Below, piece by piece: positions 56,225 through 58,836 of a stretch of DNA of 64,000 nucleotides (positions within the stretch are counted from its first letter, which is position 1; every line of letters starts with the position of its first letter). The notes under the pieces were generated by a model. That model saw nothing but the letters and a program-made list of their open reading frames with translations. It was not told the DNA's origin and made no database searches. The translations under genes were made by a program, and so were the position numbers. This stretch comes from Halobacterium rubrum (GTDB lineage Archaea > Halobacteriota > Halobacteria > Halobacteriales > Halobacteriaceae). Where the stretch lies: positions 186,001 through 250,000 of the forward strand of contig NZ_JAJQQZ010000003.1 in the NCBI RefSeq assembly GCF_021729015.1, given 5' to 3'.

Positions 56225-57172
56225 ATGAATATCGAGGCGGTCAAGGAGCGCGCCGGTCCCCGGGAGTTCAGTCCCGCCGACGACCTCCCGAGAGAGTACC
56301 GTGAGGCCGCGACACGCATGATCCAGTTCCACGCGAACAGCGAGGTGATGGGCGGCTACCTCGACAAGGAGTTCACGCGGATGGCGCCCAGTCTGGACCG
56401 GAAGCTGGCGTGCACGGCGAAGTGCCAGGACGAGATCGGGCACGCCCAGTTGCTGTACCGGGCCGCCGAGAGTCTCGGCGTGAAGACGCGAGAACAGATG
56501 CTGGACGAACTCCAGGCCGGCGAGGGGAAGTTCCTGAACTGCTTCCACTACCCCGTCGACTCGTGGTACGAGGCGCCGATGATCGACTTCTTCGTCGACG
56601 GCGGGGCGATGCGCCGGCAGGCCACGCTGAAGAACACGTCTTGGGAGCCGTACGCCCACGCGATGGACAAGGTCTGCTTCGAGGAGGGGTTCCACGTCAA
56701 ACACGGCGAGGACATCCTCCGGGAGCTGATGCGGTCCTCGAAGGCCAACCAGGAGCGCACGCAGGCGGCCTTCGACGAGTGGTGGCCGCGCATCCTCCAG
56801 TTCTTCGGGCCGACCAACGACGAGTCCCACCACGACGACTTCGCCCAGCAGGTCGGCCTGAAGACCGTCTCCAACGACGAACTCCGGAACTCCTTCCTGA
56901 ACATGTACGTCCCGAAGGCCGAGAAGTACGGCCTCGAGATTCCGGAGTACCCCCGCATCTTCGAGCGCGACGACGGCACCATGGCAGTCCGAGAGGAGGA
57001 CCTCGACTGGGACGAGTTCTGGACCATCGCGAAAAACGACTACCCCGGCAGCGAGGTCCAGATCGGGAGCCGCCGGGACCGCCAGGAGGCGGTCGCGTGG
57101 GTCCGCGAGTCGATGGACGACTGGGAGGCCAGTGCCGGCGACGACGGCCGGACGCCAGCGGGGGCGGACTGA
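56225..57172 (+). CDS. paaA: Phenylacetyl-CoA epoxidase catalytic subunit A
   Basis: This 315-residue diiron oxygenase subunit epoxidises phenylacetyl-CoA. Ferritin-like ligands are visible as Glu40 (NSEVMG), Glu70 and His73 (DEIGH), Asp125 (VDGG), and Glu154 and His157 (EEGFH), the full set known for PaaA. QFFGPTNDESHHDDFAQQVGLK is the conserved late part. The ATG at 56225 gives the usual N-terminus. It heads the paaABCD operon, and paaB starts two bases after its stop. No paaE reductase gene follows. Confidence 0.95.
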   Translation: MNIEAVKERAGPREFSPADDLPREYREAATRMIQFHANSEVMGGYLDKEFTRMAPSLDRKLACTAKCQDEIGHAQLLYRAAESLGVKTREQMLDELQAGEGKFLNCFHYPVDSWYEAPMIDFFVDGGAMRRQATLKNTSWEPYAHAMDKVCFEEGFHVKHGEDILRELMRSSKANQERTQAAFDEWWPRILQFFGPTNDESHHDDFAQQVGLKTVSNDELRNSFLNMYVPKAEKYGLEIPEYPRIFERDDGTMAVREEDLDWDEFWTIAKNDYPGSEVQIGSRRDRQEAVAWVRESMDDWEASAGDDGRTPAGAD

Positions 57173-57174
57173 CC

Positions 57175-57495
57175 ATGATCTGGGAGGTCTTCCGCCAGGA
57201 GGAGCCCGGCGACCGACACACGCACTGCGGGAACGTCCACGCACCGGACCGGGAGATGGCGACGCTGTTCGCGCAGGTCCAGCACGGCCGCCGGATGCAG
57301 ACGAACTCGCTGTGGGTCGCGCCGAAAGACGAGATCGGCGAGGTGGACGCCGACGAGACCGAGTTCGGCGGGACGACGGACAAGTCCTACCGGTGGGCCA
57401 TCACGTACAACAACATCGACGCGAGCTTCGCCGAGGAGGTCGCCGAGAGCGAGGCCGACCAGGAGGAACACGCCGAGAAGCGGGGTGGGACGTGA
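57175..57495 (+). CDS. paaB: Phenylacetyl-CoA epoxidase subunit B
   Basis: This 106-residue structural subunit has the PaaB signature IWEVFRQEEPGDRHTHCGNVHAPDREMA and QNHGRR-like QHGRRMQTNSLWVAP, with an acidic C-terminus (ESEADQEEHAEKRGG). In known complexes PaaB bridges the PaaAC pairs. It begins three bases after the paaA stop region and ends three bases before paaC, consistent with one operon. Confidence 0.93.
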   Translation: MIWEVFRQEEPGDRHTHCGNVHAPDREMATLFAQVQHGRRMQTNSLWVAPKDEIGEVDADETEFGGTTDKSYRWAITYNNIDASFAEEVAESEADQEEHAEKRGGT

Positions 57496-57497
57496 CC

Positions 57498-58280
57498 ATG
57501 GAGCCCGCCGAGGCCGAGCTGTTCCGGCTGGCCGACGACGAACTCGTGCTCGCCGAGCGGTACACCGAGTGGCAGATTTTCGCGCCGACGCCGGAGTCCG
57601 ACCTCGCGCTGGCGAACATCGCACAGGACGAGTTCGGACACGCGCGGCTCTGGTACGACCTGCTGGAGGACGAGTTCGGCTACGACGAGGCCGACCTGGT
57701 CTGGGAGCGCGACCCCGACGACTTCGTCCACAGCACGCTCGTCGAACTCGAGACGCCGGAGGGCGACTGGGCGGACACCGTGGTCCGGGGGTACCTCTAC
57801 GACGTGGCCGAGCGGCTGCGCCTCGAGGCACTCGAGGACTCGTCGTACGCCGCCATCGCCGACCGCGTGGCGAAGGTGCAGGGCGAAGAGGAGTACCACC
57901 GCGAGCACGCGCAGTCGTGGCTCGACCGCCTGACCGCCAGCGACGAGTCCCGGGAGCGCGTGCAGGCCGCCGTCGACCGGCTGTTCCCGCACGCGCTGAC
58001 GCTGTTCGTGCCGACTGAGCACGAACACGACATTGTCGAGGCCGGCGTCCGCACGCGCTCGCTGGCCGAGCTCCGGGAGGACTGGCTGGACGAGGTCGTC
58101 CCCGCCCTCGAGTCACTCGACGTCGAGGTTCCCGAACCCGGAGCCGTCGTGCGGCCCGAACCCCTGGGGCGGGACGGCAGCCACACCGACGACTGGTTCG
58201 CCCTCCACGAGGAGTTCACCGCGACCTACCACGAGCTCGGGTTCGACGAGCCAGCCGAGCTCCGGGGTGAGAACGCGTGA
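57498..58280 (+). CDS. paaC: Phenylacetyl-CoA epoxidase subunit C, with intact-looking diiron ligands
   Basis: This 260-residue ferritin-like partner of PaaA is regarded as a structural subunit in Escherichia coli, where metal ligands are lost. Here all ligand positions look filled: Glu20 (LAER), Glu45 and His48 (DEFGH), Asp102 (LYDVAE), and Glu131 and His134 (EEYH). The E. coli protein has Gln, Leu/Gln, Asp and Ala/His at those places, as I recall its sequence. A second diiron site is therefore possible. It is cotranscribed with paaA, paaB and paaD, and the stop overlaps the paaD start. Confidence 0.93.
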   Translation: MEPAEAELFRLADDELVLAERYTEWQIFAPTPESDLALANIAQDEFGHARLWYDLLEDEFGYDEADLVWERDPDDFVHSTLVELETPEGDWADTVVRGYLYDVAERLRLEALEDSSYAAIADRVAKVQGEEEYHREHAQSWLDRLTASDESRERVQAAVDRLFPHALTLFVPTEHEHDIVEAGVRTRSLAELREDWLDEVVPALESLDVEVPEPGAVVRPEPLGRDGSHTDDWFALHEEFTATYHELGFDEPAELRGENA

Positions 58281-58669
58281 GCTCGGACGCCTGTTCGTAC
58301 ACGGACTACGAGGACGGCGAGGTGCCGGAGGGCTTCCCCCGCACTGGCGAGGGGGCGACCGGCGCCGAGGCCGAGGTCTGGGACGCGCTCTGCGAGGTCG
58401 AGGACCCCGAGATGCCGGTGTCCATCGTGGACCTCGGGCTGGTCTACGACGTGACGGTCGCCGGCGACGAGGCCGAGGTGGAGATGACCCTGACGTACAC
58501 GGGCTGCCCGGCGAAGGACATGCTGCAGAACGACGTTCGGTGTGCCGCCCTGACGGCGTCGGGCGTGCGGGACGCGTCTGTGTCGATTCAGTACTCGCCG
58601 CCGTGGTCCGTCGAGATGGTGACCGAGGACGGCAGAGAACAACTGCGGGAGTTCGGGCTGAGCGTATGA
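58277..58669 (+). CDS. paaD: PaaD, MIP18/DUF59 domain only
   Basis: This 130-residue protein belongs to the MIP18 (DUF59/SufT-like) family needed to mature the phenylacetate epoxidase. VWDALCEVEDPEMPVSIVDLGLVYDVTV and LTYTGCPAKDMLQNDV carry the family Cys and Asp-Pro-Glu motif. Bacterial PaaD usually has a further zinc-ribbon domain at the C-terminus; here that ribbon is encoded by the next overlapping gene. The start GTG 58277 overlaps the paaC stop by four bases. Confidence 0.92.
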   Translation: MSSDACSYTDYEDGEVPEGFPRTGEGATGAEAEVWDALCEVEDPEMPVSIVDLGLVYDVTVAGDEAEVEMTLTYTGCPAKDMLQNDVRCAALTASGVRDASVSIQYSPPWSVEMVTEDGREQLREFGLSV

Positions 58670-58836
58670 GGGGGGTCGACCCGAGCACGTCGACGTCCGG
58701 CGACGGCGAGGAACCGGCCGAGTGTCCCTACTGCGGGTCGACGAACACGCAGCGAGAGCACCCGAAGGGACCGGGGCTCTGTCGGTCGATGCACTTCTGT
58801 GTCGCCTGCGAGCAGCCGTTCGAGCAGTTCGGGTAG
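58666..58836 (+). CDS. Detached PaaD-type zinc ribbon (56 aa)
   Basis: This 56-residue protein has AECPYCGSTNTQREHPKGPGLCRSMHFCVACEQPFEQF, whose four-cysteine spacing and the CxxCxxPF end match the C-terminal ribbon of bacterial PaaD. The ATG at 58666 overlaps the paaD stop (ATGA), so the ribbon is probably translated immediately after PaaD and binds back to it. It is too short for ordinary annotation cut-offs. The split could be ancestral in archaea rather than a break in this genome. Confidence 0.82.
   Translation: MRGVDPSTSTSGDGEEPAECPYCGSTNTQREHPKGPGLCRSMHFCVACEQPFEQFG

Follow-up and report, generated by a model that had tools for sequence, protein, structure and literature searches.

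The locus described here raises the question of whether PaaC, a subunit described as structural and non-iron (PMC4498308, PMC7497051, PMC9493321), is metal-free throughout its family. In the reviews (PMC4498308, PMC7497051), the metal-free designation is based on the proteins from E. coli and Klebsiella. The gene under study is located in a window (i.e. the whole stretch of DNA that was analyzed) of 64,000 nucleotides from Halobacterium rubrum. An earlier note, made from the sequence of the window, had observed that this PaaC appears to retain a complete set of diiron ligands, and had considered the set as a possible feature of archaeal complexes.

The paaC gene and its six ligand positions

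The paaC gene (57498..58280, forward strand) starts with ATG and encodes a protein of 260 amino acids, a ferritin-like (BMM-type) four-helix-bundle subunit bearing a complete dinuclear-metal ligand set. The product was identified using NCBIfam profile TIGR02158 (182.5 bits; cut-off 133.35) and is matched by Pfam PF05138 (203 bits); against the PaaA profile, TIGR02156, it scored 73.5 bits, short of the cut-off of 280. The gene order is A-B-C-D, with 2-nt gaps or short overlaps between genes, and all features given here are on the forward strand. The catalytic subunit is encoded by paaA (56225..57172; TIGR02156, 262 bits, slightly below the cut-off of 280) and the bridging subunit by paaB (57175..57495; NF041867 paab_haloarch, 189 bits; PF06243). 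As expected for this subunit, paaC sits between paaB and paaD. PaaD is split in this operon: a gene for its N-terminal half (58277..58669; DUF59/FeS_assembly_P; NF041868, 202 bits; TIGR02159 positions 1–89) overlaps the paaC stop, and a separate gene for its C-terminal part (58666..58836; PF23451 Zn_ribbon_PaaD; TIGR02159 positions 101–143) encodes a 56-residue zinc ribbon. The latter is named “subunit PaaE” in NF041869 and was rejected as a candidate for the PaaE reductase; it matches the C-terminus of PaaD and nothing of the reductase. Automated annotation may for this reason list a PaaE in haloarchaea, which do not have one. The best match to the PaaE reductase profile, TIGR02160, in the H. 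rubrum genome reached 49 bits (cut-off 420.8).

In every alignment made, the six ligand columns of PaaC coincided with those of PaaA, provided that Glu15 was used as the first ligand. Glu15 (57540..57542) aligns with PaaA Glu40, Glu45-x-x-His48 of the motif DEFGH (57630..57641) with Glu70/His73, Asp102 (57801..57803) with Asp125, and Glu131-x-x-His134 of EEYH (57888..57899) with Glu154/His157; the PaaA of the operon also has the bridge lysine, Lys66. All six ligands were kept in every full-length PaaA seen. The earlier note had correctly named five of the PaaC residues (Glu45, His48, Asp102, Glu131, and His134), which are present and aligned with the PaaA ligands. Its first ligand, Glu20 (57555..57557), was replaced by Glu15 on three grounds. 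Alignment places Glu15, in LADDE, opposite PaaA Glu40, in HANSE. Position 20 is not conserved beyond the haloarchaea, being Glu in 32 of 33 haloarchaeal sequences (Glu or Asp overall) and His, Gln, or Tyr in 38/38 from Deinococcota. Finally, the ligand spacing is 30-3-54-29-3 with Glu15 and 25-3-54-29-3 with Glu20, compared to 30-3-52-29-3 in PaaA; the PaaA-like pattern and spacing that had been claimed hold with the former residue and fail with the latter. The loss of ligands that the earlier note gave for E. coli PaaC was borne out, the six positions reading C/L/Q/D/A/H there and E/E/H/D/E/H in H. rubrum. The phrase “no metal ligands”, which belongs to the description of E. coli PaaC and is not a criterion for the family, does not apply to the present protein, which has 6/6.

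The AlphaFold2 model of PaaC (55-sequence alignment) had a mean pLDDT of 92.7 and a pTM of 0.90. In the model, each of the four core helices (residues 3–28, 32–60, 91–112, and 118–145, in the order given above) bears one group of ligands, and the antiparallel bundle thus carries the pattern E / E-x-x-H / D or E / E-x-x-H. The best PDB matches of the model were E. coli and Klebsiella PaaC (Z of about 33), followed by SSO1313 (22.8), aldehyde-deformylating oxygenase (ADO; about 19), BoxB (18.7), MMOH-alpha (about 17), and R2lox (15.5). VIA superposition put model residue 1 at ADO 31 (2oc5 numbering), BoxB 106, MMOH-alpha 100, and R2lox 54. Residue 15 accordingly lies over ADO 45, BoxB 120, MMOH 114, and R2lox 68, a placement that was derived from the offset of the first aligned residue (the superposition tables list the first and last ones) and presupposes a gap-free first helix. 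We take these four residues to be the first metal ligand in each protein.

Distribution and phylogeny of the ligand set

PaaC sequences were obtained from genomes sampled at random, or nearly so, within phyla, from a scan of a genome collection, and from plasmid records; together these covered haloarchaea, Deinococcota, Chloroflexota, Actinomycetota, Bacteroidota, Gemmatimonadota, and Pseudomonadota. A complete set was defined as E/E/H, D or E, and E/H at the six positions in order, and two mis-binned haloarchaeal paralogue loci (L163, L166) were subtracted from the counts. The complete set was found in all haloarchaeal (33/33) and Deinococcota (38/38) PaaC. It was also found in 21 of about 33 sequences from Chloroflexota, 27 of 52 from Actinomycetota, and 3 of 58 from Bacteroidota (in the GTDB sense), proportions that are approximate because they depend on the matches fetched. 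None was found in Gemmatimonadota (0/9), among about 60 PaaC from Pseudomonadota, or in the PaaC of 29 PaaC-bearing genomes of a separate Pseudomonadota sample. The complete set is thus not an archaeal trait, and that framing was abandoned. The alignment of many PaaC, by which the earlier note had proposed to judge whether the set is special, gave a divided outcome: the residues are kept in many bacteria and are absent in the lineage to which the solved enzymes belong. Glu takes the place of Asp102 (EEHEEH) in one group of Chloroflexota and in a single Actinomycetota genome (L226–L231, L236–L239, L324). In some Deinococcota (L198, L199; also G476, G471), PaaC is split over two frames, and in G471 both PaaA and PaaC are broken; these copies are pseudogenes or frameshift errors.

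Trees were calculated with PaaA as the outgroup and with the ligand columns removed, using a careful IQ-TREE run. The rooted tree required four changes of state (4–4 over the 5%–95% bootstrap range), and a bigger, quickly made tree had the same outline. The complete-set lineages are paraphyletic at the base of the tree, with the haloarchaea the first to branch, and the losses are derived; the complete set is accordingly ancestral, as one of the alternatives in the earlier note had it. Because the branch between PaaA and PaaC is long, the exact position of the root among the complete-set lineages is less certain than the nested placement of the main loss clade. That clade (100/100) comprises Gemmatimonadota, Rhodothermota, Bacteroidota, Pseudomonadota, and the PaaE-type Actinomycetota and Chloroflexota, and its sister is a clade of complete-set Deinococcota and Chloroflexota (100/98). 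The E. coli type is a product of this main loss. Three smaller losses are placed in a Bacteroidota clade (Glu45 to Lys, Glu131 to Leu/Ile), in one Chloroflexota genome (A/E/H/D/K/H), and in an Actinomycetota clade. As reconstructed from these sequences, loss of the PaaC ligands is an event that happened four times independently. Outside of the metal site, the complete-set PaaC groups with metal-free PaaC and away from PaaA.

In the Bacteroidota clade (L330, L335, L339–L342, L345–L348), the residue replacing Glu45 is Lys (or Gln), and His48, Asp102, and His134 are mostly retained. The change of Glu45 to Lys recalls the lysine substitution of the metal-free class Ie ribonucleotide reductase R2.

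The PaaE reductase (TIGR02160) was found in none of 95 complete-set genomes (21 haloarchaea, 24 Deinococcota, 21 Chloroflexota, 26 Actinomycetota, and 3 Bacteroidota), in which the best matches were generic reductase or ferredoxin proteins of at most 208 bits vs. the cut-off of 420.8. It was present in 61 of the 86 main-clade loss genomes tested. Within Chloroflexota, all ten degenerate-set genomes had PaaE (nine as a full-length gene adjoining paaC, and the tenth in two fragments on the contig that carries paaC), compared to none of 17 complete-set genomes. Fisher's test of this exclusion gave a p of approximately 3e-28, which was not relied upon, as PaaE entered the tree once; the anticorrelation amounts to one event and is no proof of a functional link. 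In Gemmatimonadota (0/9), as in Rhodothermota/Balneolota, no PaaE was found, and the ligands are lost in all of these groups. The loss therefore probably came first, with PaaE being recruited later, once, inside the main loss clade. A gain of PaaE as the cause of ligand loss is not supported, on these grounds and because the three small losses lie outside the PaaE clade. The PaaC of the PaaE-bearing Chloroflexota operons (L211–L219, L222) groups with actinobacterial PaaC in the tree, which suggests transfer of the whole operon.

Interpretation of the PaaC site

The explanation that we favor, with a probability of roughly two in three, is that PaaA and PaaC go back to the duplication of a single diiron oxygenase subunit and that the present PaaC keeps the ancestral, predicted dinuclear site. 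The PaaC metal center would most likely be a second, dinuclear, and probably diiron one. Each PaaA-PaaC heterodimer would then have two dinuclear centers; the prediction is 4 Fe (or Fe/Mn) for each AC pair vs. 2 in E. coli. PaaA would carry out epoxidation using its lysine bridge, and the bridge-less center of PaaC would have an auxiliary role, e.g. electron buffering or the reduction of O2 or peroxide from uncoupled turnover. Complete-set complexes would be fed by a general ferredoxin in place of PaaE, and the metal-free PaaC of E. coli would date from the common ancestor of the clade in which PaaE was subsequently gained. For the predicted center, an auxiliary redox role is put forward tentatively, at somewhat less than even odds; that it holds a structural metal is unlikely. 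A broader proposal, which we regard as doubtful, is that phenylacetyl-CoA epoxidase originally had two sites, with active dinuclear centers in both homologous subunits and a general ferredoxin as the driver. Complexes of this kind would still operate in haloarchaea, Deinococcota, Chloroflexota, and Actinomycetota, and the PaaABCE enzymes that have been studied, with their single site, would represent a later simplification.

Constraint on the site was assessed using every haloarchaeal and Deinococcota PaaC irrespective of the trait, a total of 71 sequences that are 48% identical on average. Of 242 columns, 22 were invariant, and these include all six ligand columns; the hypergeometric probability of 3e-7 is indicative only, as the sequences are related. 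A chance origin of the ligand set appears unlikely from these comparisons. The sole change tolerated in complete-set lineages, Asp102 to Glu, keeps the carboxylate. Gln43, beside the ligands, is Gln at a frequency of 0.99 in complete-set PaaC and in PaaA; in 86% of the remainder it is Leu.

Such conservation could also arise if the residues formed a buried network of salt bridges and hydrogen bonds in the helix bundle, with no metal. His134 is kept in nearly all PaaC, including that of E. coli, and PaaC that have lost the site likewise retain Glu130, so the pattern is in part a structural one; conserved ligands can outlast the metal, which counts against the metal-bound reading. Some losses, moreover, proceeded through replacement by Lys, which preserves a charge pair (EKHDLH, AKHDIH, AEHDKH). 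However, the exact E / E-x-x-H / D / E-x-x-H pattern is invariant over two domains, apart from the change of Asp to Glu, and Glu131 is altered in four of four losses and Glu45 in three of four. We consider a metal-free network to be an unlikely explanation.

It is rather improbable that the predicted center is a second oxygenation site, i.e. that PaaC is fully catalytic, binding and oxygenating an acyl-CoA in a complex with two active subunits. The first shell is complete, the fold is as in PaaA, and the solved PaaC structures found include none of the complete-set type. On the other hand, the column of the PaaA bridge lysine (E. coli Lys68), which is Lys in 244/244 PaaA, is Ile, Leu, Val, Asn, or Met in 124/124 complete-set PaaC (Ile41 in H. 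rubrum), which makes a second copy of the epoxidase site unlikely. The position of E. coli Glu49 is not conserved, and the clustering of the rest of the protein with metal-free PaaC, not PaaA, also speaks against this option.

A very small probability is assigned to the reverse history, in which PaaC began in the E. coli state and acquired the complete set later, e.g. by gene conversion from PaaA. The proximity of paaA and paaC in the operon would favor such an exchange, but in a tree from which the ligand columns had been left out, the complete lineages are several and basal and the main clade of metal-free PaaC is nested within them, and several identical six-residue events would be needed. 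A compositional accident, in which acid-rich haloarchaeal proteins place Glu or Asp at ligand positions, may describe Glu20, but it is refuted for the Glu15 set, in which two of the six residues are histidines and all six are invariant in the non-halophilic Deinococcota.

The favored reading, a retained ancestral dinuclear site, predicts approximately twice the iron per complex in complete-set enzymes. The complete ligand set is sound comparative biology; the metal site itself is a prediction and unproven. With the complete set ancestral and lost in the E. coli-type lineage, the label “metal-free” fits only part of the PaaC family; the description is indicated to be valid for one derived clade, and much of PaaC diversity has a predicted second metal site under strong constraint and no PaaE.

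Comparison with known systems

No earlier report of a complete PaaC metal site or of a PaaE-less epoxidase was found in the open-access papers that were searched. A 2026 pathway survey lists partial epoxidation modules in Halobacteria and Deinococci; it contains no ligand analysis and never uses the word diiron (PMC13186573). The lysine bridge of PaaA has been proposed to be an electron relay (PMC7497051). For the E. coli complex, the iron is assigned to PaaE (two) and to two PaaA subunits (four) (PMC4498308).

PaaC from E. coli and Klebsiella (3PW1, 3PVR, 1OTK, 4IIT) is the orthologue of the present protein by TIGR02158, with the same fold and about 30% identity; E. coli paaC also has the same place between paaB and paaD, and the proteins differ at the ligand positions as given above. 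PaaA of the same operon is a paralogue with six identical ligands at near-identical spacing, and the lysine bridge is found in PaaA only. The complete-set PaaC of Deinococcota, Chloroflexota, and Actinomycetota has the same six residues, in genomes without PaaE; it differs at position 20 (His, Gln, or other) and, in one Chloroflexota group, in having Glu for Asp102.

Two further kinds of related protein were observed. A second PaaA/PaaC-like pair occurs on a Thermus plasmid and in haloarchaea and Chloroflexota (L064 5541–6320, L067 6417–7181, L361–L370); in its C-like partner, Lys occupies the position of the first ligand and the other five are mostly kept (K/E/H/D/E/H), and one Deinococcota copy (L360) has Glu at that first position. 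A third PF05138-type protein, with E/K/H/G/E/H, is encoded near paaE in Alphaproteobacteria (L066 5388–6140; L072, L073, L146). SSO1313 of Sulfolobus solfataricus (PDB 4MUD) has a PF05138-type fold (Z 22.8), displays E, E-x-x-H, and E-x-x-H motifs in the alignment, and aligns partially to both the A and C types.

PaaC makes it possible to compare, among enzymes of a single family, the ways in which the metal of a partner subunit is lost. We know of no ligand-bearing beta subunit in methane monooxygenase or other BMMs, so the same comparison is not available there. BoxB, MMOH alpha, aldehyde-deformylating oxygenase, and R2lox share the fold and the first-ligand position with PaaC, and all are catalytic subunits with a proven metal; in MMOH beta, the usual analogue of PaaC, the ligands are lost.
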